Part shown: piece by piece, positions 673 to 15,675 of the stretch | How the letters are laid out: each line of letters opens with the position of its first letter | Numbering within the stretch: position 1 is the stretch's first letter | Assembly: GCA_007693585.1 (NCBI GenBank) | Contig: REDH01000081.1 | Location: forward strand, 1-64,000 | Direction of reading: 5' to 3' | Length of the DNA stretch: 64,000 bases | DNA from: Deltaproteobacteria bacterium | GTDB lineage: Bacteria; Myxococcota_A; Bradymonadia; REDH01 | Notes under the pieces: generated by a model | Told to the model about the DNA's origin: nothing | The model's database searches: none | Seen by the model: the letters and a program-made list of their open reading frames with translations, nothing else | Translations under genes and position numbers: made by a program

Positions 673-2040
673 ATGCCCAAAGCGCTCTCCCCAGCCCTCT
701 TCGCCGCCGCCATGGCGGTCCTCGTGTTTACCGCGTGTACCCGCACGAACCCGGGACCCGAGCTCCACTCGCCATCGGCGCCCATGGCCCTGCAGGCCGG
801 ACAGCAGCAGCAGGGGGCCTCCGCAGACGAGGACCGCGCCGACGGGGCGATGGACGATGACTCCCCCGCCGAGGTCCCGGCTGTCCCCGAGGACCCACCC
901 GCCCCCGAACCCGACCGGACGACCCTGCCCACGGGCTGGGGAACCGTGCCCGCCCCACCGCTCGATGAGGCTGGCCCACGGATCGACACGGGCATCGATC
1001 ATGTGGTCATCCTCGTCGTGGACGGCGTCCGATCCGACGCGATCGCGACCCTCGGGACCGAAGGTGCACCCACCTGGCACAGGCTCATGGCGGAAGGGGC
1101 CTCCACCCTCAACGCCCGCACGGATCCCCGCCGCACGTACACCAATCCCAACCACCTCGGCATGATCACCGGACTGGTCACCGATGGAGACGACGGGCAC
1201 GGGCTGCGCAGCAACCGCGATGTCGAGGGCACCCTCCACGACCTTCGCGGCGCCTACCTGCCCAGCGTTCACGACGTCACCTTCCACCACGGTCTCACGA
1301 CCGCCGTCTTCGCCTCCAAGCCCAAGCTCGACCTGCTCTCCCGGTCGTGGACCCCGGAGCACGCCGCACCCTCCTCCGCGCGTGAGGACAACGACGCCCT
1401 CCGCATCGTCGCCGAGAGCTTCAACGAGCTCGACGATGCCGAGACCCATGCCGTCGCTCTCGAGTTCCTGGAGCAGGAGGAACTGCCGGCCATCCTCTTC
1501 CTGCAGTACAGCCGGAGCGACGGCATCGGCCACAGCAGTGGGTTCAACCCGACACCCGGCTCCGCCTACATGCGGGAGCTCACCCGCATCGACGGATACA
1601 TGGCCGAGATCCTCGAGCGGATCGAGCAACATCCCGCACTCGCCGGGCGGACCGCCGTCGTCCTGACCACCGACCACGGCGGCGAGGGAACCAACCACTT
1701 CAACCTCGACCACGCCGCCAACTGGACCATTCCCCTGGTCGTGTGGGGACCGGGGGTCCCCGCCGGAACCGATCTCCACGCGCTCAATGCCGAAGGGCGC
1801 GCCGACCCCGGCGACGTCATCGCCTCCGACGCCGCACCCCCGCCGATCCGCAACATCGAAGCCGGGCAGATCGCCCTGCGGATGCTCGGCCTTCCCCCGA
1901 TTCCCGGCTCCCGGGTCGGCGTCGCCCCCCCGCTGCAGGTGTTCGCCCCCGCGGCACGCCCAGCGGAGGATGCCGAAGCGCGCCCCGCCCCCCCGGGAGG
2001 TGCACCCGCACCGGAAGCCGCGCCTGCACTCACCCCCTGA
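673..2040 (+). CDS. Alkaline-phosphatase-superfamily phosphodiesterase lipoprotein
   Basis: Predicted 455-residue lipoprotein. The start was chosen at the ATG giving a signal peptide ending FTAC (Cys22), although the frame stays open far upstream. A Pro/Glu/Asp-rich linker (about residues 25-100) precedes the catalytic domain. The domain starts at VVILVVDGVRSDA, whose Asp is a metal ligand in type I phosphodiesterase/nucleotide pyrophosphatase enzymes. TYTNPNHLGMITG supplies the probable Thr nucleophile region, SDGIGHSSG further metal ligands, and TTDHGGEGTNH the paired Asp-His ligands. It likely hydrolyses phosphate mono- or diesters outside the cell. The substrate cannot be told from sequence. 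It lies 50 bases before the esterase lipoprotein on the same strand, so co-transcription is plausible. A Pro/Ala-rich tail closes the protein. Confidence 0.8.
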   Translation: MPKALSPALFAAAMAVLVFTACTRTNPGPELHSPSAPMALQAGQQQQGASADEDRADGAMDDDSPAEVPAVPEDPPAPEPDRTTLPTGWGTVPAPPLDEAGPRIDTGIDHVVILVVDGVRSDAIATLGTEGAPTWHRLMAEGASTLNARTDPRRTYTNPNHLGMITGLVTDGDDGHGLRSNRDVEGTLHDLRGAYLPSVHDVTFHHGLTTAVFASKPKLDLLSRSWTPEHAAPSSAREDNDALRIVAESFNELDDAETHAVALEFLEQEELPAILFLQYSRSDGIGHSSGFNPTPGSAYMRELTRIDGYMAEILERIEQHPALAGRTAVVLTTDHGGEGTNHFNLDHAANWTIPLVVWGPGVPAGTDLHALNAEGRADPGDVIASDAAPPPIRNIEAGQIALRMLGLPPIPGSRVGVAPPLQVFAPAARPAEDAEARPAPPGGAPAPEAAPALTP

Positions 2041-2090
2041 CCGCTCCTCGGCACCCGCCCCCGACGACGTCCCCCCCCAACGGCGACTCC

Positions 2091-3449
2091 ATGCGCACCC
2101 TCCCCTTGCGGCTGACTCCGATCCTCCTCGCGGGCATCCTCGCCCTCCCCGCCTGTTCGGACGACGACCTGCCCGGATCCGGCACCGACGCGCCGCACTC
2201 TCTCGTGCCGGACACCACATCGCTCGGCGAAAGTGCCCCCGAACGCTCCGGCGGGCAGGCCACCACGGAATCCGTCGCCTCCATTCCGTCCGGACCCGGT
2301 TCCTCGCCGCAGCAGACCCGCGAGGACACCTCCGGCGCGACCGCATCCGGCAGCGCCGCGTCCACCCACACCCCCGAAACGGATCCGGCACACTCTTCCG
2401 AGGCCCCGGCACCGACCGGCGGCGACCCATCGAACGCCCCGTCCGGCACCGCCGAATCGTCGCAGGCGCCAGACCCGACGCAACCGCCTTCCGCTGGCCC
2501 GGACCCCACGGACCCCGAACCCACCGAGCCGCAACCCTCGGTGACTCCACCGTCGGAACCCGCCTCCACGGAGACGCAGCCCTCGGAACCCACCCCGACC
2601 GATGCTCCCGAGCCGACCGAACCCCAGCCCTCCGAGACCGGACCCACCCCGACCGATGCTCCCGAGCCGACCGCGTCAGAACCCGGGCCAGCCCCCCTGC
2701 CGCCCTACAGCGGTGGGGAGTGCCCGTCGATGGACGACGGCACCGTCCGCCTGCAGAGCGCAGGCATGGGGCGCGAAGTCCTGATCAACCTGCCCGATGA
2801 GCCACGAGACGCCCCCGTCGTGTTCGTCTACCACGGGAACGGCAATTCGGCGCCCGAGTTCGAGCAGCGCTTCCAGACTCGGCGCATCGCCGAGGAGTAC
2901 GGCGTCATCGTCGTCATCCCGTCCAGCAGCGGGCGCTTCTCCATCGAGTGGCCGGTGCGCAGCAACGAGGACAAGACGGTTGACGCGGTGCTCTTCACCG
3001 ATGTCCTCGCCTGTCTGGACGAGCACTGGGGCATCGACCGCCGCCGCGTCTACACCTCCGGATTCAGTGCCGGCGGATTCTGGAGCACCTGGCTGGCGCT
3101 CAACATGAGCGACTACATTGCGGCGGTGACGCTCTTCTCCGGAGGGATCAGCACGGGCGCCGTGTCCTACACCAGCCCGAGCTGGCCGATCCCGGTGCTG
3201 GCCTCCCATGGCGGCACCTGGGACTGGGTGCTCTACCGGTTCAACCGGGCGTCCGAGGATCTGGCCAACGCCCTCGTCGACGACGACGGATTCGCCATCG
3301 TATGCAACCACGGAAACGGGCATCGCATCCACTACGACGTCCCGGACTTCATGATGCCCTTCCTGCTCTCCCACACCTGGGGCGAGTTCCCTTCCCCGTT
3401 CGCGGCGGGCCTCGACGAGGGCTGGCCCAGCGAGTGCGTCATCTGGTGA
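2091..3449 (+). CDS. Feruloyl esterase / PHB depolymerase-like lipoprotein
   Basis: Predicted 452-residue lipoprotein. The start gives MRTLPLRL, a hydrophobic core and LPAC with Cys22. About 180 residues of Ser/Thr/Pro/Glu linker follow, including repeated TDAPEPTE-type units. The alpha/beta-hydrolase domain occupies roughly residues 205-452. It has VVFVYHGNGN at the oxyanion region, the nucleophile elbow GFSAG, a likely catalytic Asp in GGTWDW and a His in NHGNGH. This pattern matches LpqC-type esterases (feruloyl/acetylxylan esterase and PHB depolymerase relatives). A role in removing esterified groups from extracellular polymers is inferred. Cys residues flanking the domain could form disulfides. 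Confidence 0.78.
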   Translation: MRTLPLRLTPILLAGILALPACSDDDLPGSGTDAPHSLVPDTTSLGESAPERSGGQATTESVASIPSGPGSSPQQTREDTSGATASGSAASTHTPETDPAHSSEAPAPTGGDPSNAPSGTAESSQAPDPTQPPSAGPDPTDPEPTEPQPSVTPPSEPASTETQPSEPTPTDAPEPTEPQPSETGPTPTDAPEPTASEPGPAPLPPYSGGECPSMDDGTVRLQSAGMGREVLINLPDEPRDAPVVFVYHGNGNSAPEFEQRFQTRRIAEEYGVIVVIPSSSGRFSIEWPVRSNEDKTVDAVLFTDVLACLDEHWGIDRRRVYTSGFSAGGFWSTWLALNMSDYIAAVTLFSGGISTGAVSYTSPSWPIPVLASHGGTWDWVLYRFNRASEDLANALVDDDGFAIVCNHGNGHRIHYDVPDFMMPFLLSHTWGEFPSPFAAGLDEGWPSECVIW

Positions 3450-3465: not shown

Positions 3466-4437
3466 TCAGCCGGCCGTCCGGTCGCCGGCCCTGGATGGAG
3501 CGGGGGGCATCCCCATGCGCTCCCGCAGCGCGACGAACGACGGCGTCCACTGGCCGCGAGCGTCGCGCACCACGAGGGTGTCCTCGCGCGTCGACCGCGC
3601 CCCCGCCGCCAGCACCGCCACGAACAGCAGCGGTTCCTTTCCCTCCCGGGGCACGACGGTCACCCGCCGCACCAGGCCCCAGCCCTCCTTCGCCGCACTC
3701 CGTTCGAGCTCGCAATACTGGGCGATGGCGCCGCACAGGACCACGCGGCCTTCGGGCGAGACGATCCGCACGGCGCTCGACACGTAGTCCTCCATGCCGC
3801 CTCGCACGGTGAACCGGCACGCCTCCCGCTGCACGCCGGCCGGAGCGGTCGCGGCCCCCTGCGCAAAATACGGGGGCGTCCCGGTCACCAGATCGGACCC
3901 GCGCGCGACGTCTCCGCGCGACGCTTCGTCGGCCCTCCTCCTTCCCATGGCGAACGGCTCGGCGACTCCGACCTGGTCGGCCATTCGCCCGGAGAGCCGC
4001 CGCGCCACCTCTTCCCGGCCCAGCCTTCGGTGGTCTCGCTCCAGCACCGCTACCCGATCCGCCGCGCCATTGTAGCGGAGCGATCGGCGGGCGAGCGCGG
4101 CGCTCAGGGGCTGCGCCTCCACACCGAGGCTGCGCACCCGGGGGAAGGCCCACGCCACCATCATGAGCACGGAGCCGATGCCGCAGCCGAGATCCACGTG
4201 GGTGCCGGGATCCTCCGGGACACTGGTGACAGCGACCCAGGCCGTCACGAGGTCGTCGAGCGACCAGCGGTGCCCGTCGACGCGCTGGAGGATTCTCCAG
4301 TCGCCGGTGAGAAAGCACAGATCCTCGCGCGGCCCGGGGCGCAGGTCCGGATGGACGAGCCCTGCGGGCCGGGGACCTGGCGCCGACCATCCCGGCGGTC
4401 GTCGAGCAGGACGGATGATGCCGTCGGGGGTGGGCAT
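3466..4437 (-). CDS. TrmN6-like tRNA/protein N6-methyltransferase
   Basis: Rossmann-fold SAM-dependent methyltransferase with motif I VDLGCGIGSVLMMVAW and motif IV GTPPYF. In the tRNA1(Val) A37 N6-methyltransferase family (TrmN6/YfiC) motif IV is usually NPPYF, so Thr replaces Asn here. The start at 4437 (MPTPDGII) was chosen because the longer frame, from 4524, would overlap the upstream ATPase gene by 77 bases. The new start leaves a 10-base gap. It is the last gene of the opp operon by position and orientation. Family membership is fairly clear. The exact substrate is uncertain because of the motif change and the Arg/Pro-rich N-terminus. Confidence 0.68.
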   Translation of the reverse strand: MPTPDGIIRPARRPPGWSAPGPRPAGLVHPDLRPGPREDLCFLTGDWRILQRVDGHRWSLDDLVTAWVAVTSVPEDPGTHVDLGCGIGSVLMMVAWAFPRVRSLGVEAQPLSAALARRSLRYNGAADRVAVLERDHRRLGREEVARRLSGRMADQVGVAEPFAMGRRRADEASRGDVARGSDLVTGTPPYFAQGAATAPAGVQREACRFTVRGGMEDYVSSAVRIVSPEGRVVLCGAIAQYCELERSAAKEGWGLVRRVTVVPREGKEPLLFVAVLAAGARSTREDTLVVRDARGQWTPSFVALRERMGMPPAPSRAGDRTAG

Positions 4438-4447
4438 CGGCGGGGAC

Positions 4448-5479
4448 TCAGACCTCGCGCTGTCCACCACCGGTCGGATCGTCGACGAGGTGGCACGCGG
4501 CCTGGTGTCCGCCACCGAGGTCATGCAGCGGCGGCACTTCCTTGCGGCATCGGTCCCAGGCGTATGGGCAGCGTGTGTGGAACCGGCACCCGGTGGGTGG
4601 ATTCTGCGGGCTGGGCAGATCCCCGGTGAGCACGATACGCTCCCGGGTGCTTTCGATGGCCGGATCGGGAATCGGAACGGCGCTGATGAGTGCCTGCGTG
4701 TAGGGGTGGGACGGCTTGCGGTAGAGCTCCTTCGCCGGCGCGATCTCGACGATGCGGCCGAGGTACATGACGGCGATGCGATCGGAGATATGTCGCACGG
4801 CGGAGAGGTCGTGGGCGATGAAGATGTAGGTGAGCCCCAGCCGCTTCTGGAGGTCGACCATCAGGTTGAGGATCTGGGCCTGAATGGAGACATCGAGGGC
4901 GGAGATGGGCTCGTCGCACACGATGAGGTCCGGTTCGGCGGCGAGGGCCCTGGCGATGCCGATGCGCTGACGCTGCCCACCGGAGAACTCGTGCGGGTAC
5001 CGGCGCACGAATCTCGCATTGAGTCCGCACAGTTCCATCAGCTCCCGAACGCGCTCCATGACGGCGGGCCCAGTGCGCAGCCTGTGCACGCGGATCGGCT
5101 CGGCGATGGTGTCTCCCACGGTCAGGCGGGGGTTGAGGGAGGCGAACGGGTCCTGGAAGATCATCTGCATGCGCCGTCGCATGGGCTTCAGATCCCGCTC
5201 CGGGAGGGTGGCGACGTCCACGGGCTCGCTCGTCCCTTCCCGTGGAGCCAGGCGCACGCTGCCCGCGGTGGGGCGATAGAGCTGCAGGATGGCGCGTCCG
5301 GTGGTGGACTTGCCGCAGCCACTCTCGCCGACGAGGCCGAGGGTTTCGCCCGCGTGCACGCTGAAGTCCACGCCGTCGACGGCGTGCACGGTGGCGACGT
5401 GCTTGCGGAAGGCGCCGGCGAAGACCGGGAAGTGCATCTTCAGGTTCTCGACCTGCAGCAGCGGCGTGGGATCACTCAT
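4448..5479 (-). CDS. oppF: Peptide ABC transporter ATP-binding protein OppF/DppF
   Basis: 343-residue cytoplasmic ATPase that powers oligopeptide import with its OppD partner. It shows Walker [10 protein letters not shown], signature [14 protein letters not shown], Walker [13 protein letters not shown] and the switch His in FIAHDLS. The C-terminal oligopeptide-transporter motif with paired Cys ([14 protein letters not shown]) is typical of OppD/F and may hold an iron-sulfur cluster. Its ATG overlaps the oppD stop in an ATGA arrangement (5476-5479), showing translational coupling. Length and motifs are normal for the family. The transported substrate is not deducible. Confidence 0.93.
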
Positions 5480-6654
5480 TCGCCTGCCTCCTGGTCGTCT
5501 GTGGCGTGGGCGGGGGAGTCGTCGGTGGCGGGCGGCGGCCGGTCGGCTCCGTCGGGATCGGGCACCGACACCTCGCGAGCGGCGTCGGAGTCATGGGGGG
5601 TGTTCGCCGGCTCGGCGGTGTCGGCGGAGGTCCCGTCCTCGTCGGTGGGGGGAGCGATGAGGCCGCGTGCGTTCCACTCGGCGACTTCGGGGCGGTGGCA
5701 GGCGACGGTGTGTCCGTCGGCGACGGTGCGGCTTTCGGGGAAGGTCTGGCGGCAGGCGTCGACGGCGAAGGTGCAGCGGTCGACGAAGGGGCAGCCGGGC
5801 TTGAGGCGGGAGAGGTCGGGGGGCTGGCCGGGGATGGGGATGAGGTCGTCGCGGCCATCGGCGTCGAGTCTGGGCAGGGAGCGCAGGAGGCCGATGGTGT
5901 AGGGGTGGTGGGGGCGTCGGAAGAGCGAGGCGGTGGGGGCGGACTCCATGACGCGGCCGGCGTACATGACGATGATGCGGTCGGCCATGCCGGCGACGAC
6001 GCCGAGGTCGTGGGTGATGAGGATGATGGCGGTGCCGAGGTCCCGCTTGAGATCGCGCATGAGGTCCAGGATCTGGGCCTGGATGGTGACGTCGAGGGCG
6101 GTGGTCGGTTCGTCGGCGATGAGGAGCGCGGGGTCGCACAGGAGGGCCATCGCGATCATGACGCGCTGACGCATTCCGCCGGAGAACTGGTGGGGGTAGG
6201 CGTCGATGCGGTTGCCCGCGTCGGGGATGCCGACCTTCTCGAGCATCTCGATGGCGCGGCGGCGCTGGGCGTTCCGATCGAGGGTGGTGTGGATGTCGAG
6301 GACCTCGGTGAGCTGCCGGCTGATCCGCAGGAACGGATTGAGGCTGGTCATCGGGTCCTGGAAGATCATGGCGATGCGGTTTCCGCGGAGCTTGCGTAGC
6401 GTCTCCGGTGGCATGCGCAGGAGGTCGACCCCTTCGAAGAGGGCTTCGCCGCTCTCGATGGTGGCGGGGGGCGAGGGGAGCAGGCCGAGGATGGAGAGCT
6501 GGGTAACGGACTTGCCGGAGCCCGACTCGCCGACGATTCCGAGGGTCTCGCCGGGGGCCAGGCGGAACGACAGTCCGTTGACGGCGGTCACGCGTCCGCC
6601 CTCGGTGTCGAAGACGGTCCTGAGGTTGCGGACATCGAGGAGGTGTTCGGCCAT
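5476..6654 (-). CDS. oppD: Peptide ABC transporter ATP-binding protein OppD/DppD
   Basis: 392-residue ATPase partner of OppF. It carries Walker A GESGSGKS, signature [14 protein letters not shown], Walker [13 protein letters not shown] and the C-terminal Cys motif [14 protein letters not shown]. About 65 residues at the C-terminus (from the region [10 protein letters not shown]) form an acidic, Pro/Ala-rich tail that most OppD proteins lack. Its role is unknown. The start codon shares a base with the oppC stop at 6654, and the stop overlaps the oppF start, so the four core genes are tightly coupled. Confidence 0.92.
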
Positions 6655-7955
6655 CAGTCCTTTCTCATGCGGGGATCGAGGGCGTCCCGGAGGCCGTCGC
6701 CGAAGAAGTTGAGGGAGAGGAGCGTGAGGGCCAGGAGGGAGCCTGGCACCAGGATGAGCCAGGGGTAGTTGACCATGACTCCGGGGGGAGCGCCCTCATT
6801 GGCGAGGCTTCCCCAGGAGGTCTGGGGGGGCTGCACGCCGAGGCCGAGGAAGGAGAGGAAGGCTTCCTGGAGCATGACGGCGGGCACGGTGAGGGTGGCG
6901 TAGACGATGATGGGACCGAGGGCGTTCGGGATGAGGTGCCGGAACACGATCTCGAGGCCCGGGGTGCCGATGCTTCGTGCGGCGAGCACGAACTCCTGGT
7001 TCTTGAGGGAGATGACCTGGCCGCGGACGATGCGGGACATGTCGAGCCACGAGACGGCGCCGATGGCGATGAAGATGAGCAGGATGGACTGCTCGAAGAT
7101 GACCATCAGCAGGATGACGAGGAAGAGGTAGGGGAGGCCGTAGAGGATGTCGACGAAGCGCATCATCACGGTGTCCACGCGTCCGCCGAAGAAGCCGGCG
7201 ATGGCGCCCCAGGTGACGCCGATGAAGAACGAGACGAGGGTGGCGAGGAGTCCGACGGCGAGGCTGATGCGGGCGCCCCAGATGGCGCGCGTGAGGAGAT
7301 CGCGGCCGAGTCCGTCGGTGCCGAGGCGGAACACCTCCGGTCGCGGCACGCCGACGAACTCGTCGGGGGAGAGGCGGCCGTCGCCGGTGCGGTCGTGCTG
7401 GCGCACGTAGAAGATGGCGGCGCTCATCGGGAAGATGTCGACGATGAGCTCGGCCTCGTCGATGTCGAGGACACCGTCGCCGTTGCGGTCGTAGCCGGCG
7501 AGGATGCGGGCGTAGTCGCTGGTGCCCGGGAAGGCCCGGGGGGCGCGGCGCAGGTCGTCCTCGGTGAGGGTGCCCGTGCCGCTGACGTCGAGGTGTTCGA
7601 ACTCGAGCTGCCGGAGGTAGACGCTGAGCTCCTCGGCGGTGACGAAGCCATCGCCGTCTCGGTCGACCGCCTCGAACGGATGCTCGTCGAGCGGGAGGGT
7701 GCGGGTGTGCACCCGCGGGATGCCGCGCATGCCGGGAGGCTGGTAGCGCAGGCACGGGTTGGTCTCCTCGACGGTGAAGCGGGTGACCTGCGAGGAGAGG
7801 ACGGGGGCGCCGAGGGCCATGGCGGACATGAGGACGATGAAGGCGAGCCCGGCCACGGCGGCCCTGTTCTTCATCAGGCGCTTGAGGGCGTCCTTCCAGA
7901 GCGAGTGTCCGGCGGCCTCGTCGTGCGCTGGGGAGTCCGGGTTGTGCTCAGTCAT
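6654..7955 (-). CDS. oppC: OppC-type permease with four inserted EF-hand loops
   Basis: 433-residue inner-membrane permease, over 100 residues longer than usual for OppC/DppC. TM1 is at about residues 31-50, then the family sequence LRYQPP. Instead of passing directly to GTDGLGRDLLTR, the protein inserts about 130 residues (75-208). These hold four EF-hand loops: D98-E109 (DRDGDGFVTAEE), D123-D134 (DVSGTGTLTEDD, Asp at position 12), D156-E167 (DRNGDGVLDIDE) and D188-E199 (DRTGDGRLSPDE). The loops fall in the first extracytoplasmic loop. After the insert the standard BPD_transp_1 core resumes with ARISLAVG and further TMs. The reading frame is continuous and the gene overlaps oppB by 8 bases. 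Calcium binding and regulation of import are inferences. Permease identity is firm. Confidence 0.93.
   Translation of the reverse strand: MTEHNPDSPAHDEAAGHSLWKDALKRLMKNRAAVAGLAFIVLMSAMALGAPVLSSQVTRFTVEETNPCLRYQPPGMRGIPRVHTRTLPLDEHPFEAVDRDGDGFVTAEELSVYLRQLEFEHLDVSGTGTLTEDDLRRAPRAFPGTSDYARILAGYDRNGDGVLDIDEAELIVDIFPMSAAIFYVRQHDRTGDGRLSPDEFVGVPRPEVFRLGTDGLGRDLLTRAIWGARISLAVGLLATLVSFFIGVTWGAIAGFFGGRVDTVMMRFVDILYGLPYLFLVILLMVIFEQSILLIFIAIGAVSWLDMSRIVRGQVISLKNQEFVLAARSIGTPGLEIVFRHLIPNALGPIIVYATLTVPAVMLQEAFLSFLGLGVQPPQTSWGSLANEGAPPGVMVNYPWLILVPGSLLALTLLSLNFFGDGLRDALDPRMRKD
7332..7733 (-). other. EF-hand insertion within oppC
   Basis: Coding segment for residues 75-208 of the permease, between the conserved QPP and GTDxLGRD motifs. 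Three loops (98-109, 156-167, 188-199) have the canonical Asp/Asn at positions 1, 3 and 5, Gly at 6, hydrophobic at 8 and Glu at 12. The loop at 123-134 is degenerate, with Ser and Thr at positions 3 and 5 and Asp at 12. Base composition matches the flanks, so there is no sign of recent foreign origin. Confidence 0.88.
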
Positions 7956-8865
7956 CGTAGGACACCCGTGGATCGAGGACGGTGTAGAGCAGGTCGACGA
8001 TGAGGTTCAGGACGACGAGCAGCGCGGAGTAGACGATGATGACCCCGAGAACGAGGAAGTAGTCGCGGTTGAAGGCGGCATCGACGAAGAAGGTGCCGAG
8101 CCCCGGGACGTTGAAGACCTTCTCGATGACCACGGACCCGGTGAGGACAGAGGCGCTCGCCGGCCCGAGGTAGCTGACGACGGGCAGCAGGGCTCCGCGC
8201 AGCGCGTGGCGAAAGACGACGAGCCGCTCGACCACGCCCTTGGCCCGCGCGGTGCGGATGAAGTCCTGGCGGATGACCTCGAGCATGCCGCCGCGGGTGA
8301 GGCGCGCGATGTAGGCGGTGTAGAACAGCCCGAGGGAGACGCTGGGCAGGATGGAGTCCGGCCATGCCTCGTAGCCCCCGGAGTTGAACCATCCCAGCCC
8401 GGCGGCGAACAGCAGGATCAGGATCGGCCCGAGCACGAAGTTCGGGATCGAGACGCCGATCATGGCGAACGTCATCGCGCCGTAGTCCCAGCCGGTGTTC
8501 TGCTTCAGGCCCGCGAGGAGCCCGAGCAGCGTACCGAGCAGGACGGCGAACAGGAGCGCCTGGCCACCGATGAGGAGCGAGTACGGGATGGCCTCGGCGA
8601 CCATCTCGCTGACGGGCGCATGCTGGCGGATGGACTGTCCGAGGTCACCGCGCACGAGGCCGCGCAGGTACCAGCCGTACTGGACGATCACGGGCTGATC
8701 GAGCCGGTAGCGCTCCATCAGCATCTGCTCGATGTCCGGGTCGAGCTGCCGGTCCTGCGACAGGGGCGAGCCCGGCGCCGCCTTCATGACGAAGAACGAC
8801 AGCGAAATGATGATGAAGAGAACCGCGATGCTCTGGCCGAGCCGCAGCGCGATGTACTGGATCAC
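7948..8865 (-). CDS. oppB: Peptide ABC transporter permease OppB/DppB
   Basis: 305-residue inner-membrane permease of the importer. The N-terminal TM (QYIALRLGQSIAVLFIIISLSF) and the motif APGSPL are characteristic of OppB/DppB, followed by five further hydrophobic segments. The EAA-type coupling loop is near the segment TARAKGVVERLVVFRHAL. It pairs with the EF-hand OppC, and the two genes overlap by 8 bases. Its own ATG overlaps the end of oppA (8862-8865, ATGA). Length is typical. It has no insert of the kind found in OppC. Confidence 0.93.
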   Translation of the reverse strand: MIQYIALRLGQSIAVLFIIISLSFFVMKAAPGSPLSQDRQLDPDIEQMLMERYRLDQPVIVQYGWYLRGLVRGDLGQSIRQHAPVSEMVAEAIPYSLLIGGQALLFAVLLGTLLGLLAGLKQNTGWDYGAMTFAMIGVSIPNFVLGPILILLFAAGLGWFNSGGYEAWPDSILPSVSLGLFYTAYIARLTRGGMLEVIRQDFIRTARAKGVVERLVVFRHALRGALLPVVSYLGPASASVLTGSVVIEKVFNVPGLGTFFVDAAFNRDYFLVLGVIIVYSALLVVLNLIVDLLYTVLDPRVSYDD

Positions 8866-10496
8866 GGGCTCTCCTCCTCATCCACCTTGTACACCCGGTG
8901 CACGATGTGGGTGTTCGTGGTGCTCATCTCCCAGCCGCGGACGTTGGGCCGCACCAGGTGGAACTGGCCGTAGTAGTAGATGGGCATGATCGGCCGCGCC
9001 TCGAGCAGGTACCGCTCGGCCTCGAGCAGGTGCCGCAGGCGCTCCTCGGGGTCGGAGATGTTGAACCCTTCCTCGATCATCCGGTCGAACGTGGGCGACC
9101 CCCAGCCGGTGTTGTTGTTCGCGTCCCCCGTCTTCCACATCTCGAGGAAGGTGTTCGGGTCCGAGTAGTCCCCGATCCAGCCCGCCCGTCCGACATCGAA
9201 GTCCATCTCGCGTGTGGAGTCGAGATAGACCTTCCACTCCTGGTTCACGAGCTGGATCTGCACCCCGAGCTCCATCTGCCACATGTCCTGAATCGCCTGG
9301 GCGATCAGCCGGTGGTTCTCGTCGGTGTTGTACAGCAGGCGCAACCGCGGAATGCCCTCGCCGTTCGGGTACCCCGCCTCGGCCAGCAGACGCCGCGCTT
9401 CGTCCCCGTCGTAGCGGATGACGTCCAGCCGCTCGTATCCGGGCATGGGGGGCACGAAGCTGGTGGCCGGCGTGTACAGATCGTCCAGGGTGCAGCGGCA
9501 CAGCTCCTCCCGATTCACCGCGAGAGAGAAGGCGCGCCGAACGCGCACGTCATCGAACGGAGGCCGCGTGGTGTTGAACCGGTAGTAGTAGGTGCCGAGC
9601 CAGTCCGCCGTGCGGAAGGCCGGATCCATGCGCAGCGTGGCCAGTTCGTTGGCCGGCAGGTCGTAGACCCAGTCCACCCTCCCGTCGCGATAGGCCTGTA
9701 CGCGCGCGGCATGGTCCTCGATGATCCGGATGATCAGCCGGTTGAGGCGAAGATTGTCGTGTCCCCACCAGTAGGGGTTCGGAACCGCCTCGATCCGGTT
9801 GCGACGGAGATAGCGGTCCATGGCCCACGCCCCGTTCGTGACAAGGTTCTCCGCCCGGAACGCGTTCTCCTGCCCGTGCTCCTCGATGCTCGCCCGGTGC
9901 ACCGGGAACAGCGTGAAGAAGCTCACCACCTCGAGAAAGAAGGGAATCGGCTTCTGCAGCTCCACCTGCAGGGTCCAGTCGTCGAGCGCGCGCACGCCCA
10001 CCTCGTCCTCGGTCGCCTCCCCGGTCTCGAAAGCTCGCCCGTTCCGGAGGTAGCGAAGGAAGCTCACATAGTAGGCTGCCACGTCGCCGCGCAGAATCCG
10101 CTTCCACGCGTACTCGAAGTCGTGCGCCGTGACGGGATCCCCGTTGGACCAGCGGCCGTCGCGCCGGAGGTGGAACGTCCAGGACAGCTGGTCCTCCGAC
10201 ACCTCGTGCCGCTCGGCCGCTCCCGGAACCGGGGGTCCGTCGCCCAGGGACGGGCTGTAGAGGCCCTCGAAGAGCTGCCACAGGATCATGCCTTCCACCG
10301 ACCCGGTGACGACGCCGGGGTCGAAGGACTCGGGGTCAGCGCCGACGGACATGCCGAAGACGTCCAGCGGCAGCCCCTCCGAACGACCGCGGCATCCCCC
10401 AAGTCCCGCGGCGAGGACTCCCACCGCAAGCAGGGTGAGGCACCACGCCAGCCCGCGTCCGCGGGCGAGGTTCGAGGAACCGTACTCTCTCATCAC
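8862..10496 (-). CDS. oppA: Peptide ABC transporter substrate-binding lipoprotein OppA
   Basis: 544-residue solute-binding protein of the SBP_bac_5 family, first gene of the operon. The signal peptide ends in lipobox GLGGC (Cys35). The family signature VGADPESFDPG opens the mature domain, and TVTAHDFEYAWKRI-like sequence (here DPVTAHDFEYAWKRI) and AINREELC-like sequence (here AVNREELC) are further hallmarks. It would capture peptides outside the cytoplasmic membrane and deliver them to OppB/OppC. Two adjacent ATGs (10496, 10493) are possible starts. A stem-loop lies upstream at 10530-10550. Confidence 0.92.
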   Translation of the reverse strand: MMREYGSSNLARGRGLAWCLTLLAVGVLAAGLGGCRGRSEGLPLDVFGMSVGADPESFDPGVVTGSVEGMILWQLFEGLYSPSLGDGPPVPGAAERHEVSEDQLSWTFHLRRDGRWSNGDPVTAHDFEYAWKRILRGDVAAYYVSFLRYLRNGRAFETGEATEDEVGVRALDDWTLQVELQKPIPFFLEVVSFFTLFPVHRASIEEHGQENAFRAENLVTNGAWAMDRYLRRNRIEAVPNPYWWGHDNLRLNRLIIRIIEDHAARVQAYRDGRVDWVYDLPANELATLRMDPAFRTADWLGTYYYRFNTTRPPFDDVRVRRAFSLAVNREELCRCTLDDLYTPATSFVPPMPGYERLDVIRYDGDEARRLLAEAGYPNGEGIPRLRLLYNTDENHRLIAQAIQDMWQMELGVQIQLVNQEWKVYLDSTREMDFDVGRAGWIGDYSDPNTFLEMWKTGDANNNTGWGSPTFDRMIEEGFNISDPEERLRHLLEAERYLLEARPIMPIYYYGQFHLVRPNVRGWEMSTTNTHIVHRVYKVDEEESP

Positions 10497-10634: not shown

Positions 10635-13600
10635 TCAGTCGCAGGCGAAGGGGGTCGCCGCTCCCGGACTGCCCGCCGTGTTCGAGCCTCCTTGCGAACC
10701 GGAAGAACCGGATGACCCGGACGGGCCCTGAACCCGGGCGGTGCATCGGCTCGAATTGCTGCTGCACGGGTCACCCCCTTCGCCACCCGCCCCGCCGTTT
10801 CCTCCAGTGCCTCGCGCGCCGGGCTGTCCACCGTTCACCGACGTGACCGCGTGGAGAGCCGTCACGACCTGCGGCGCGGAGTACAGTCTGACAGTCGGCG
10901 CATTGCCCCCTCGCCCCGCCGCTCCGCCGTTCCCGCCGCGACCACCATCGCCCCCCCGGCCCCCGTCAGTTCCCTGCCTGTAGCAGCAACAGCAACTCGA
11001 GATGCCGCAGATTCCACACTGCGCGGTGCTGCATCCACCGTCGCTGCACTGGCCGGTCTCCCCCTTTGCACCTGTCCCGCCGTTGCCACCACGCCCACCG
11101 CTCCCCCCGACAACGCCATCGAGTCGCAGGGTGAGGAATGAGCTGACATCCTCGTCGCTGGTCACGACGCGTTCGGTGCCATCCGGTGCCACCCGGATGA
11201 CGCGATGGATCGTGAGCCGAAGATCGGGATAGTGGAACGTGGTACCTGCAGCCCCCGCTCCTCCGTTGGTTCCATCAGCCCCGCGCACCGCGGGCGTTGT
11301 CCCGTTGCTCCCGTTCCCACCGTTCAGCGAGGCCACGCTGCCCAGCGCGATCTCGAGGTGAGCGCCCTCGGGAATGCGAACGGTCTCGAGAATGAACTCG
11401 TGGGCCTGCGTGCCCATACCCTGCAGTCTCAGGACGGAGCGATTGTTCCCTTCCACGGCCGCCGTGACCGAGCGCACAATTCTGCGGGGGCCGTCCACCG
11501 AGCGACTCGAAATACTGCAGATACCGAACCAGTTGCAGGAACTGCTGAACACCACACTCTCCGTCAGCGCAAGGTCGGCGAGTCGGTCGATCTCGCCTTC
11601 GCAGCGGCACAGTCCCCCGCTGCAACCGTACAAGCACTCCACATCCTCGCTGCACAGCGCCCCGCCCGCTCCGCAGGTACCGCCCATGCAGTCGCTGTTG
11701 ACACAGTCGTCGTCGGCCGAACAACTCCCCCCTACGCCCCCGCAGATCCCGGAGCCACAACCGAGCGTCCCGTCGCAGTCTTCATCCACGATGCATGAGG
11801 CTTCCGGACCACCGCACCGCCCACCACCACATCCACCGCCAAGGCACTGCTCATCGACCTCGCAGTCCTCACCGACCGCCAGCACACGAACGCCACGCAC
11901 CGCATCGCTCCAGGCAACCTGCGCGCCAGCAGCGTCCGCTCCGACCCGGTACCAGCGCGCAGCACCCGGTGCGATGGCCTCATCGAGATAGCTGTCGCCG
12001 CCGGAGTCCTCGAATGCGAGGAACGTCCCGAACTCCTCGTCGGACCACTCCCACGTCCTTTCGGCTTCTCCCACCGCGCGGCGACCGTTCACCACATTCG
12101 AAGGCTCCCCGTCACCGGTGCCGTTCACGGCCCGGACACGATACGAGCGCTCCTCCCCCTGCTCCACATCCAGACCTTCCAGCGTCAGCAAGACCCCGTC
12201 CAGGCGGTCTCGGCTCGCCTGCGGCTCCGCCAGCATGATGCTGCCCACCGGCGCATCCTCGTCGAGGAACGTCACGTCCGTACCTGCGTCCTGCCAGGAA
12301 CCTTCGCGCTCAATCTCGTACCGCACGACCGGGGTTGCAGCTCTCCAACCTTCGGCTGCGTCCGACCACGCGCCTTGCTGCAGTGACGTGACCGCGCGCA
12401 CGCGGTACGTGACTTCCTCGCCTCGAGGAGTCTCCGCCGCGTCCCAGGACAACATGACCCCATCGACCCGATCCGACGATGCGGACAAGCCGCCGGGTGC
12501 GGATGGGGAACCACCCGCCGGTGCACCGGAGTCGCTCCAGGACGAACCCACCACAGGCTCTGCCGTCACCCGTACACCCTCGCGGTACACGTGGTACCCC
12601 GATGCATCGGCTACCGCGGCCCAGGTCACCACCACGTGCTCCTCGTGCTCGCCCTGCGTCGCCCGCACTTCACCGGGCACACCAAGCAGCGGAAGGCACT
12701 CTCCGAAGACGTCTTCGAAGCCCGGAATGCAGCCGGCACAGCGAGCGTCCACCGCAGGGTCCGGCTGCACGCACGAGCGGGATCGCGCCGCGCAGACGGA
12801 GCCGAGTTCGGCACAATCGAGGGGGATCTCACCACATCCGGGCAGCCCCGGTTCATCCACGCAACGAACCCGTTCCGAGGACGCCTCGCACACCCACACG
12901 CCGCAGTTGCCACATCGCTCTCCGGGAATGCCGATCAGCGGCGCGCAGCCGCCACAAGCGTTGAACACTTCCGAAGGAACCGGCTCAACACACTCCAGCG
13001 CAGGCCCCGGGACACACTCCAGACTCCCGGCGCCGCAGGTGCCGCAGGCACCGCCCGGGACGCCCCCGTCCAGTGGCGCACACGAACCATCGCAAGGGTG
13101 GAAGGCCGCCTGTCCCCGGTCTCCTTCGCAGATGACGCCCTCCGCTCCCGCGCAAGCCCAGCGGCCCGAATTGCACGATCCGCAAGGCATTCCCGGAACA
13201 CCCTCCAGTGTGCCACTGCCCCCGCACGCGTTTTCGGTCCCCGCCCGGGAGACACAGACCACCTCCTCCGCCCCCGCGCAAACGATCACACCTCCCCCAT
13301 CGCACGCCGAACCCGGCATCTCCGTCATGTCCGCACATCCACCACAGGGGTTCCGCTCGTCTCCGTCACACCGAACCCCAGACACCTCACGCTCGTCCAG
13401 GACCCAGAGCCCCGTGCAGCCACACGCCTCGCCTGGGCGTCCGGGCAAAACACCACAGCCACCTGCCTCGTTCCGCTCCAACCCCGCGCACACCAGCGAG
13501 GAGCCATCCTCGCTGCAGACCAGCACCCCCTCTCCGCACAAGCGCGATTCATCGAGACAGTCCTCCCCCGGAAGCGAGAGAGCGTCATCGTGAAGCAGAA

Positions 13601-14306
13601 CTCCTTCGCCCCCACAGGCGTTCTCGTCTTCCGCCAGCTCGCGGCAGTTCACTTCATCGTCCGAGACACACACCCACACCCGCTCCTCGCCCACGTCACC
13701 CCGGCAGGTCCGACCCGGCGCACCATCCAGAACCGCGCAGCCGCCGCAGCCGTTCGCGCGCGCCCCACCGGAACAGATCACATCCCCCTGCGGCCCACAC
13801 ACCCATTGCCCCCCACATGATCCACAGGGCTCACCCGGTTCGCCCGAGAGCAACCCGCACCCACCACACGGATTGAGCACCGTCTCCCCCGCACAGCGCA
13901 GCTGGTCAGGCCCTCCACACACGAGAATACCGCCACAGCCACACGAATCGAGCACGCCGGACTCCATATCGCCATGCGTGAGTACCGCACTCCCCCCGCA
14001 GGCGTTCAGGACGGGAGCATCCTCGCTGCGTTCCGTTGTCGACCGGGAGTCCACGACATCCGACACCGAAGCATCGCTCTCCGCTGCATTCGATATGCTG
14101 GACGTCACGTCGGGTTCCTCCACATCCGAACGCTCGTCATGGCCTCGTGTGCCCTCCACATCCGCGCCGGACCCCCCGTCGGCCGGAGTGTCCAGCGACG
14201 TGTCACACGCGGCCGCACTCCAACACAGCAGCACAGCCATCACCCATGCCCGCTGTGCCCGAACGAAGACAGACGACACACCCGACAGCCGAATCAGTCT
14301 ACACAC
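10635..14306 (-). CDS. Giant Cys-rich, FnIII-like and Gly-rich repeat lipoprotein
   Basis: 1223-residue secreted lipoprotein of unknown function. I place the start at a GTG (14306) because AGGAG lies 5 bases upstream and it yields a signal peptide ending SAAAC (Cys34). The frame is open further upstream but would run into the MalK-type gene. About residues 75-600 hold roughly a dozen Cys-rich units built on NACGGC...PGxPCGxCGxWVC. About 620-860 look like two or three fibronectin-III modules (VVVTWAAVADASGYHVYRE; RVRAV repeated). About 860-960 is another Cys-rich block of CxxDxDC units. The tail from about 1010 is Gly/Asn-rich, collagen- or beta-helix-like, ending PFACD. Likely a disulfide-stabilised surface adhesin or structural protein (inference). 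Confidence 0.8.
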   Translation of the reverse strand: MCRLIRLSGVSSVFVRAQRAWVMAVLLCWSAAACDTSLDTPADGGSGADVEGTRGHDERSDVEEPDVTSSISNAAESDASVSDVVDSRSTTERSEDAPVLNACGGSAVLTHGDMESGVLDSCGCGGILVCGGPDQLRCAGETVLNPCGGCGLLSGEPGEPCGSCGGQWVCGPQGDVICSGGARANGCGGCAVLDGAPGRTCRGDVGEERVWVCVSDDEVNCRELAEDENACGGEGVLLHDDALSLPGEDCLDESRLCGEGVLVCSEDGSSLVCAGLERNEAGGCGVLPGRPGEACGCTGLWVLDEREVSGVRCDGDERNPCGGCADMTEMPGSACDGGGVIVCAGAEEVVCVSRAGTENACGGSGTLEGVPGMPCGSCNSGRWACAGAEGVICEGDRGQAAFHPCDGSCAPLDGGVPGGACGTCGAGSLECVPGPALECVEPVPSEVFNACGGCAPLIGIPGERCGNCGVWVCEASSERVRCVDEPGLPGCGEIPLDCAELGSVCAARSRSCVQPDPAVDARCAGCIPGFEDVFGECLPLLGVPGEVRATQGEHEEHVVVTWAAVADASGYHVYREGVRVTAEPVVGSSWSDSGAPAGGSPSAPGGLSASSDRVDGVMLSWDAAETPRGEEVTYRVRAVTSLQQGAWSDAAEGWRAATPVVRYEIEREGSWQDAGTDVTFLDEDAPVGSIMLAEPQASRDRLDGVLLTLEGLDVEQGEERSYRVRAVNGTGDGEPSNVVNGRRAVGEAERTWEWSDEEFGTFLAFEDSGGDSYLDEAIAPGAARWYRVGADAAGAQVAWSDAVRGVRVLAVGEDCEVDEQCLGGGCGGGRCGGPEASCIVDEDCDGTLGCGSGICGGVGGSCSADDDCVNSDCMGGTCGAGGALCSEDVECLYGCSGGLCRCEGEIDRLADLALTESVVFSSSCNWFGICSISSRSVDGPRRIVRSVTAAVEGNNRSVLRLQGMGTQAHEFILETVRIPEGAHLEIALGSVASLNGGNGSNGTTPAVRGADGTNGGAGAAGTTFHYPDLRLTIHRVIRVAPDGTERVVTSDEDVSSFLTLRLDGVVGGSGGRGGNGGTGAKGETGQCSDGGCSTAQCGICGISSCCCCYRQGTDGGRGGDGGRGGNGGAAGRGGNAPTVRLYSAPQVVTALHAVTSVNGGQPGARGTGGNGGAGGEGGDPCSSNSSRCTARVQGPSGSSGSSGSQGGSNTAGSPGAATPFACD

Positions 14307-14340
14307 GGAGGCTCCTGTTCCGAAAGAACGCACCGAACGG

Positions 14341-14369
14341 AGAATACGGCAGTCGTCTGCCCCCCACAA
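14341..14369 (-). promoter_or_regulatory. Promoter for the giant lipoprotein gene
   Basis: On the minus strand TTGTGG (14369-14364) is followed after exactly 17 bases by TATTCT (14346-14341), 34 bases before the chosen GTG. The same -10 hexamer occurs at 22022-22027. It overlaps the end region of no gene, since the MalK-type gene ends at 14533. Confidence 0.5.
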
Positions 14370-14532
14370 CCCAAGAATCGTTCCCTCCACACCTCCCAAC
14401 AGGGAAGTCGCAGACGAACCGAATCTCCGTCCGCAAGGGGCACGACCGGCGAACCTCATCCGGCCCGATCGACTGCCCCGGATCGTCCACAACGGAGCCA
14501 TCCGGACCGCTCCGACTCCCCCGTTCCTTCGC

Positions 14533-15675
14533 TCAACCCGTGTACTCCAGCAAACACGCCCCGTCGTCCACACCGAACACCCGGACGTCCGCGGGCGCGG
14601 CCGTGAACGCCAGCTCCTGGCCAGGACTCCAGCTCCCCACGTCCCGCACCTCCGCGCGGACGATGAACGGCTCCTCGCCGACCCGGACGTGGAGGTTCAC
14701 CTCCCAGCCCATCGGCTCGAGCAGCTCGAGGGTCGCCCGGACCGTCACCGGCGGCGCGTCCGCGGACGCCTCCACCAAGGCCCCCTCCGGGGCCCCTCCG
14801 CCGCGGGCACCAGACCGGACGCGCAGGTCATGGGGACGCACGCCGAGCACGACCTCGCCGGCGGCCTGCCCCGCGGCGTTGAGCGGCAACGCTTCCGTGG
14901 CCACGCGCACCCCCGGCGCCACGAAGGCGTCCCCCTCGCGTGCGGCCCGCACGAAGTTCATGCGCGGGCTGCCGAGGAACGCCGCGACGAAGCGGTTCGC
15001 CGGGCGGAAGTAGAGGTCATCCGGGGTCCCGATCTGCTGGGCGATGCCCTCGTTGAGGAGCAGGATGCGATCGGCCATGGTCATCGCCTCGACCTGGTCG
15101 TGGGTGACGTAGACCATGGTGGTGGCGAGCTCCCGGTGCAGGCGCTTGAGCTCGACGCGCATCTGGGCGCGCAGGGCGGCGTCCAGGTTCGAGAGTGGTT
15201 CGTCGAAGAGGAAGACGCTCGGCCGGCGAACGATGGCGCGGCCCATGGCGACGCGCTGCCGCTGCCCACCGGAGAGGGCCTTGGGCAGGCGTTCGAGGAG
15301 GGGGGTGAGGCCGAGCATCTCGGCGGCCTCATCGACGCGGGCGGCGATGACGTCGCCCGGAGTCCGGGCGAGGCGGAGGCCGAACTCGAGGTTCTCGCGC
15401 ACGGTGAGGTGGGGATAGAGCGCGTAGCTCTGGAAGACCATGGCGACGTCGCGGTCACGGGGCGGGACCTCGTTGACGACGCGGTCGCCGATCTCGATGC
15501 GGCCTTCGGAGGGGGTCTCGAGGCCGGCGAGGAGGCGCAGAACGGTGGACTTTCCGCAGCCCGAGGGCCCGACGACGACGAGGAACTCTCCGTCGGCGAC
15601 CTCCACGTCGAGGCCGCGGACGACGTGGACGTCCCCGAAGGACTTGCGGACGGCGGCGAAGCGGACCTGGGCCAC
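14533..15675 (-). CDS. MalK/UgpC-type sugar ABC transporter ATPase
   Basis: 380-residue ATPase of the CUT1 carbohydrate importer family. It has Walker A GPSGCGKST, Q-loop FQSYALYPH, signature LSGGQRQRVAMGRAIV, Walker B VFLFDEPLSNLD and H-loop VTHDQVEA, followed by a TOBE domain (GVRPHDLRV). The start is GTG. It follows the amylase genes in the same direction with a 96-base gap, so it probably energises uptake of the maltodextrins they release. No MalE, MalF or MalG is in the window. The ATPase must serve permeases encoded elsewhere, as multitask MsmK-type ATPases do in other bacteria (inference). Confidence 0.88.
   Translation of the reverse strand: MAQVRFAAVRKSFGDVHVVRGLDVEVADGEFLVVVGPSGCGKSTVLRLLAGLETPSEGRIEIGDRVVNEVPPRDRDVAMVFQSYALYPHLTVRENLEFGLRLARTPGDVIAARVDEAAEMLGLTPLLERLPKALSGGQRQRVAMGRAIVRRPSVFLFDEPLSNLDAALRAQMRVELKRLHRELATTMVYVTHDQVEAMTMADRILLLNEGIAQQIGTPDDLYFRPANRFVAAFLGSPRMNFVRAAREGDAFVAPGVRVATEALPLNAAGQAAGEVVLGVRPHDLRVRSGARGGGAPEGALVEASADAPPVTVRATLELLEPMGWEVNLHVRVGEEPFIVRAEVRDVGSWSPGQELAFTAAPADVRVFGVDDGACLLEYTG

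Follow-up and report, generated by a model that had tools for sequence, protein, structure and literature searches.

What do four EF-hand loops do in the outer part of a permease that belongs to a peptide importer? The question is raised by a gene in contig REDH01000081.1 of a member of the Bradymonadia (assembly GCA_007693585.1), of which the first 64,000 nucleotides, here called the window, were analysed. A preliminary description, drawn from the letters of the window, had proposed an OppC/DppC-type permease with an insert ahead of its GTDxLGRD motif, and this is borne out by matches to the Pfam models BPD_transp_1 and OppC_N and to those of the EF-hand. The features are collected in Table 1. 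Papers are cited by PMC number.

Table 1. Coordinates of the features discussed, in the window unless a locus is named.
Feature	Position	Strand	Evidence or remarks
oppC, permease with EF-hand insert	6654-7955	-	433 aa; BPD_transp_1 1.4e-32, OppC_N 3e-12 (Pfam)
TM1 of OppC, residues 32-50	7806-7862	-	hydropathy; OppC_N match 18-74
Extracytoplasmic insert, residues about 60-209	7329-7778	-	absent from 28 insert-less OppC (alignment A3)
EF loop 1, residues 98-109, DRDGDGFVTAEE	7629-7664	-	
EF loop 2, residues 123-134, DVSGTGTLTEDD	7554-7589	-	weak ligands: Ser 3, Thr 5, Asp 12
EF loop 3, residues 156-167, DRNGDGVLDIDE	7455-7490	-	
EF loop 4, residues 188-199, DRTGDGRLSPDE	7359-7394	-	
GTDGLGRD motif, residues 212-219, start of permease core	7299-7322	-	alignments A1 and A2
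oppA, lipoprotein-like solute-binding protein	8862-10496	-	SBP_bac_5 2.7e-88 (Pfam); best NCBIfam OppA 3.7e-102, below cut-off
oppB, partner permease without long insert, 305 aa	7948-8865	-	BPD_transp_1 5.8e-38 (Pfam); best NCBIfam OppB 1.6e-98, below cut-off
oppD, ATPase	5476-6654	-	Pfam ABC_tran and oligo_HPY; best NCBIfam OppD 1.3e-128, below cut-off
oppF, ATPase	4448-5479	-	Pfam ABC_tran and oligo_HPY; best NCBIfam OppF 1.4e-121, below cut-off
OppB with lipoyl-like insert	L192:4091-5248	+	
OppB with lipoyl-like insert	L193:4205-5356	+	
OppB with lipoyl-like insert	L195:4586-5740	+	
OppB with lipoyl-like insert	L196:4476-5639	+	
OppB with lipoyl-like insert	L197:4139-5287	-	

The oppC frame contains no internal stop and is intact, as had been described. 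Both BPD_transp_1 and OppC_N score above their cut-offs in the window protein and are found in all 36 members of alignment A1, and G212, D214, G217, R218 and D219 of the GTDGLGRD motif are invariant in alignments A1 and A2. The protein is named OppC-type only, because it scores below the curated cut-offs of the NCBIfam OppC equivalogs (304 vs 450 bits for Opp3C, 295.9 vs 433 bits for PRK15406). It is encoded together with an SBP_bac_5 protein, a second permease and two ATPases, the set of genes by which a peptide-permease operon is recognised, and neighbouring reading frames from oppA through oppB, oppC and oppD to oppF share 1-8 bases, in agreement with the complete, tightly coupled operon proposed earlier. 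The same genome encodes two more OppC-like permeases, both without EF loops. Among 20 stretches around EF-bearing oppC genes (E 1e-15), some of which stop at contig ends, oppB is adjacent in 19, oppA in 16 and oppD in 15. The complete five-gene operon is common, not universal, since oppD is missing beside oppC in five genomes (G001, G002, G060, G069 and G212) although the sequence there runs on for 2.4 kb or more downstream. Other reading frames of the window include one of 1312 residues with many cysteine-rich CGG repeats (10635-14573, minus strand), which has no NCBIfam match at 0.001, a methyltransferase-like frame that overlaps the end of oppF (3466-4524, minus strand) and bears a weak likeness to TrmN (1.5e-12, far below cut-off), and one that partly resembles extracellular polyhydroxyalkanoate depolymerases (1743-3449, plus strand; 2.3e-20, below cut-off).

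All four EF-hand loops fall between TM1 and the GTDGLGRD motif. Five Pfam models of the EF-hand superfamily match the window protein, four of them above cut-off: EF-hand_6 (57.5 bits, E 4.3e-16; cut-off 25), EF-hand_1 (55.8 bits over four stretches; cut-off 25.4), EF-hand_5 (42.2 bits; cut-off 25.9) and EF-hand_7 (43.4 bits; cut-off 30); EF-hand_8 stays under its cut-off of 28 with 24.4 bits. The insert is acidic (charge -12 and pI 4.7 over the 156 residues preceding GTD), and when its profile was compared with solved structures, the best 60 of 364 matches were calmodulins or calmodulin-containing chimeras. Chance was assessed with a PROSITE-style EF-hand pattern, the relaxed form of which matches the window insert four times and none of the 28 insert-less OppC proteins. 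Shuffling residues 60-209 gave one relaxed loop in 86 of 20,000 trials, two in a single trial and more in none. A chance motif was rejected on the strength of these shuffles and of the Pfam scores above cut-off. The preliminary description had placed four loops at the positions of Table 1, which hold, and had called loop 2 degenerate and the other three canonical. These labels did not stand: loop 2 passes the strict 13-residue pattern, albeit with weak ligands, and loops 3 and 4 each fail it. By the rules of the class survey described below, two of the window loops are strict and all four are relaxed. In the window genome, EF-hand_7, EF-hand_5 and EF-hand_1 match inside oppC only (E 0.001), and EF-hand_6 gave no match at all; as this search missed oppC itself, its failure to find further EF-hand proteins carries little weight.

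The closest solved chain is that of E. coli OppC (8z21_B by phmmer; Foldseek E 4.1e-16), and AlphaFold predicts a permease fold for the core, with block mean pLDDT of at least 84 in all but the last block. In the full model, for which 28 insert-less homologues were supplied, the block means of the insert are 36-55, and the insert folded alone as a single sequence reached a mean of 32.8 and stayed below 50 throughout; both runs were made without EF-bearing homologues. DppB and DppC of the E. coli importer DppABCDF each expose their TM1-TM2 region to the periplasm, where DppA caps the pair; in DppB, this region is the scoop motif, which reaches into DppA (PMC12136057). The insert should adjoin the docking face of OppA, because the homologous loop of DppC is periplasmic and lies under the DppA cap; the placement on the outer face that had been proposed is supported by this analogy. 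Long inserts of other kinds occupy this OppC loop in L082, L101 and L106 (Acholeplasmataceae, Treponema and Rhizobium records); none of these inserts contains a Pfam domain above cut-off, and that of L106 has no EF-hand by Pfam. Judging by these three lineages, the loop seems to accept insertions.

The insert is not confined to one assembly. A first search of 95 genomes yielded, as its best 30 matches, the window and 29 others, all of the window's class and all insert-bearing. At E 0.01 or better, EF-hand_6 finds 35 of the 36 aligned members, as does EF-hand_1; the one missed by EF-hand_6 is L118, from another class. A profile built from 36 EF-bearing permeases was then run against 377 genomes from the phylum, of which 57 belong to the window's class and 320 to others, and EF-bearing OppC was found in at least 58 of them. 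Within the class, 32 of the 57 genomes contain a full-length match, and G027 and G032, in which the match ends at a contig edge with later loops still visible by eye, raise the count to at least 34. The other 23 have no long match; they include incomplete assemblies, and few of their sequences were read. Eight of them, all f3 family members, lack any OppC match at E 0.001, ten have a best listed match that starts past the insert, and five (G022, G031, G033, G037 and G041) have a weak best E-value.

Outside the class, long matches occur in at least 19 of the 320 genomes and divergent ones in at least six (G134, G108, G212, G224, G144 and G167). All 25 other-class inserts were read and scanned with Pfam: 14 score above an EF-hand cut-off (L117, L119, L157, L158, L159, L161, L162, L164, L167, L168, L169, L170, L172 and L176), ten match an EF-hand model under cut-off only (best E-values 2e-5 to 0.008), and L118 carries a homologous insert with no EF-hand match at 0.05. 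With L118 excluded, EF-hands are thus found by profile in at least 24 of the 320. The co-occurrence in related genomes that the preliminary description had looked for is therefore present both inside and outside the class, and the assembly artefact that it had considered is rejected, as many related genomes carry the insert. Beyond the phylum, none of the 80 loci listed showed an EF loop in a short-pattern (regex) scan; since that scan also recovered no member of the window's class, it leaves room for EF-bearing OppC elsewhere. Among 3267 plasmid records, 92 have matches that span 80% or more of the query; the 12 listed are rhizobial, and the Rhizobium locus L106 matches over a comparable length.

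Conservation within the insert is concentrated at the positions expected of metal sites. Mean entropy among 32 class members is 0.98 bits at the signature positions (numbers 1, 3, 5, 6, 8 and 12 of each loop, 24 in all), compared with 2.58 bits at the 24 remaining loop positions and 1.98 bits at the 76 insert positions outside the loops (p 2e-8 and 7e-8, respectively; Mann-Whitney, indicative only because the rows are related). D123 and D188, the position-1 residues of loops 2 and 4, show no variation. Mean identity to the window protein is 34% in the insert and 72% in the core; from this low identity beside conserved ligand positions, the insert drifts fast at the sequence level while its putative metal-site positions stay, and the retention claimed for it earlier holds across the related genomes. 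In 18 other-class members, D1 and G6 of loop 1 and D1, D5 and E12 of loop 4 are invariant (loops assigned by eye); the spacing alignment of such members comprised 17 sequences, three of them with their starts cut.

The number of loops varies. Four loops are strict in 4 of the 32 class members, three in 12, two in 11, one in 4 and none in 1; by the relaxed rule there are four in 16, three in 13 and two in 3. Loop 2 is strict in 29 of 31 class relatives and relaxed in 2, and loops 3 and 4 are short of ligands in part of family f5. An acidic insert is common to all 32. All 16 f5 proteins of the alignment also contain two conserved cysteines between loops 2 and 3, perhaps a disulfide, which would fit an oxidising periplasm. 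They belong to a stretch of about 17-22 extra residues at this place in L012, L014, L018-L020, L022-L025, L028-L032, L114 and L116.

The history of the insert was approached with trees of the permease core only. The first, made with a quick method from 103 rows (L130, L161 and L172 were left out, and L161 and L172 do carry EF-hands), has a branch (SH-aLRT 85) that separates 52 EF rows and five divergent rows from all others; as the divergent rows nest within, the EF rows without them require two changes. The second, from a careful search on 77 rows, remained after removal of 26 of the 103 (long branches and near-copies, all five divergent rows among them) and has the EF rows as one group (83/88), present in 84% of 200 bootstrap trees. 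No insert-less permease falls inside the EF clade in either tree. A single origin of the EF-bearing permeases is consistent with these core sequences, with moderate support.

The partner permeases were also inspected. In seven of the eight other-class OppB proteins read beside an EF-bearing oppC, some 70 inserted residues, which look lipoyl-like or barrel-sandwich-like, separate TM1 from TM2; these seven are the five of Table 1 and, likewise, L198 and L201, and L194 is without such an insert. In the five scanned with Pfam, Biotin_lipoyl lies just above cut-off in L197 (8.2e-05) and under it in L192 (0.0011), L193 (0.045) and L196 (0.21), and L195 has no match. The OppB of two class relatives, L184 (4343-5419, plus strand; family f7) and L188 (4055-5119, plus strand; family f5), contain another, shorter insert ahead of TM2, which has no Pfam match of its own and is absent from the OppB of the window.

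With slightly better than even confidence, we read the insert as a Ca2+-ordered periplasmic lobe of OppC that helps OppA to dock, a standing structural role being more likely than that of a switch. The EF-hand signature, its place and conservation, and the grouping of its bearers in the tree are established at the level of sequence; we infer that the insert binds Ca2+, folds into a lobe, touches OppA and affects transport. Periplasmic Ca2+ would fill two to four of the loops, the filled loops would order the insert as a compact, acidic lobe next to the channel mouth of OppB-OppC, and the lobe would help OppA to dock or to be held there, as a Ca2+-stapled standing docking platform rather than a fast switch. 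The Bradymonad group is described as predatory, saline and short of many amino-acid pathways (PMC7460792), and the genes common to two of its cultured strains include oligopeptide transport (PMC7188933). Ca2+ should be high in the saline habitats of these cultured relatives, and a structural role is favoured over a switch because sites in calcium-rich habitats would be filled nearly always. Of the calcium-sensing module of the preliminary description, which would let Ca2+ gate or stabilise the docking of OppA, the EF-hands, their place and their retention are supported, and sensing looks less likely than the structural role. A precedent for a docking lobe is AlgQ2, whose EF-hand-like Ca2+ motif interacts with its ABC importer (PMC5717064). 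Evidence against it comes from the low pLDDT of the insert, in runs that included no EF-bearing homologues, and from members in which the EF loops decay, both in and outside the class. A rather unlikely alternative is a calcium gate, in which the EF-hand domain would change shape with the Ca2+ level and switch the importer on and off in the manner of the mitochondrial ATP-Mg/Pi carriers. Four loops with conserved ligands, the predicted border with the docking face of OppA and the precedent of the carrier mechanism (PMC5369052) agree with such a gate, but periplasmic Ca2+ probably tracks the medium and would be high in saline habitats, so that a high-affinity switch would stay always on; loss of ligands in loops 3/4 of some f5 members and decay of the module in some other-class members also argue against it. 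We consider unlikely, too, that the gate extends to a calcium-gated ABC importer in which Ca2+, changing with broken prey envelopes or with the niche, sets peptide uptake. Such an importer would parallel, in bacteria, the mitochondrial carriers regulated by EF-hands; it would have arisen once in the phylum and, in part of it, work beside a lipoyl-like OppB module.

The remaining readings give the metal or the insert another meaning. The domain might mainly capture a partner other than OppA near the importer mouth, such as peptides, Ca2+-bridged acidic substrates or envelope polymers; an acidic, fast-evolving surface, the other inserts in the same OppC loop of three other lineages and those in the matching loop of seven of eight other-class OppB proteins would suit this, but the loop signature positions are the better conserved ones, and we regard it as improbable. 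We would give scarcely more than slight credence to a tolerated decoration, an EF insert without a role in transport in a loop that accepts inserts. Other lineages do have other inserts at this place, the insert evolves fast and L118 has lost any recognisable EF-hands; the ligand positions, however, are selectively conserved, and both trees lack insert-less permeases within the EF clade. Very improbable is a site for lanthanides instead of calcium, as in lanmodulin, whose hallmarks include a gap of 12-13 residues from one EF hand to the next and a Pro as second residue of at least one loop (PMC10232371). In 30 of the 32 class members loop 2 does start 25 residues after the start of loop 1, and in the other two 24, leaving 12-13 residues between, but loops 2-3 and 3-4 are spaced more widely in all 32, Pro occupies position 2 in 1 of 128 loops (loop 3 of L007, probably misaligned) and the protein is far longer than 200 aa.

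Peptide importers such as DppABCDF are usually described as driven by the loaded binding protein and ATP (PMC12136057). A conserved metal-binding module on the permease would add an outside ionic input to the import of nutrients; the cultured kin of these bacteria are predators without many amino-acid pathways (PMC7460792). Because an outward-facing module of the calmodulin kind is kept in many related bacteria, calcium may shape their peptide uptake. The novelty that the preliminary description had claimed survived a search of the open-licence PMC literature, in which none of the entries listed pointed to an EF-hand-bearing peptide importer; one paper names OppC and EF-hand in unrelated places, and the excerpt of a review on bacterial calcium proteins mentions no such permease. 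The permease core and the EF-hand are already known, and it is their combination, its place and its retention over a clade that are new.

Known systems share parts of this design. E. coli OppC/DppC (8z21, 8z1v; PMC12136057) has the same permease core with GTDxxGRD, six-helix fold and peptide importer operon, but a short TM1-TM2 loop; the window OppC is about 130 residues longer and contains the four EF loops. Lanmodulin, also a periplasmic protein with four EF hands and compared for that reason, has the loop 1-2 gap of 12-13 residues that is seen in the OppC insert; unlike the insert, it is small, has Pro at position 2 and keeps the short spacing throughout. Membership of the insert in that family was rejected, as the short gap is restricted to loops 1-2 (32 of 32) and none of the four window loops has Pro at position 2. 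Calmodulin and other EF-hand proteins, the best structure matches of the insert (best 60 of 364), are not parts of transporters, and in calmodulin the spacing of loops 1 and 2 is longer than in the OppC insert. OpuA and other importers that carry regulatory domains are ABC importers under ionic control, as the window system may be; the domains by which OpuA senses ionic strength lie on the cytoplasmic side. In the solute-binding proteins of cluster VII, such as AlgQ2, an EF-hand-like Ca2+ motif interacts with the ABC importer (PMC5717064), but there the site is on the binding protein, whereas the window importer has four loops on the permease. SLC25A24 and its kin are, like OppC, inner-membrane transporters with EF-hands on the outer face, either four (PMC5369052) or eight (PMC4250520), and the ATP-Mg/Pi carrier is regulated through a locking-pin mechanism by its four EF hands, which lie in the intermembrane space (PMC5369052). 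Their EF-hand domain is N-terminal and its regulation by Ca2+ has been demonstrated, whereas that of OppC is an insert known from sequence; OppC has the fold of an ABC permease by Foldseek and not that of a mitochondrial carrier, so that the likeness between the two is one of design.
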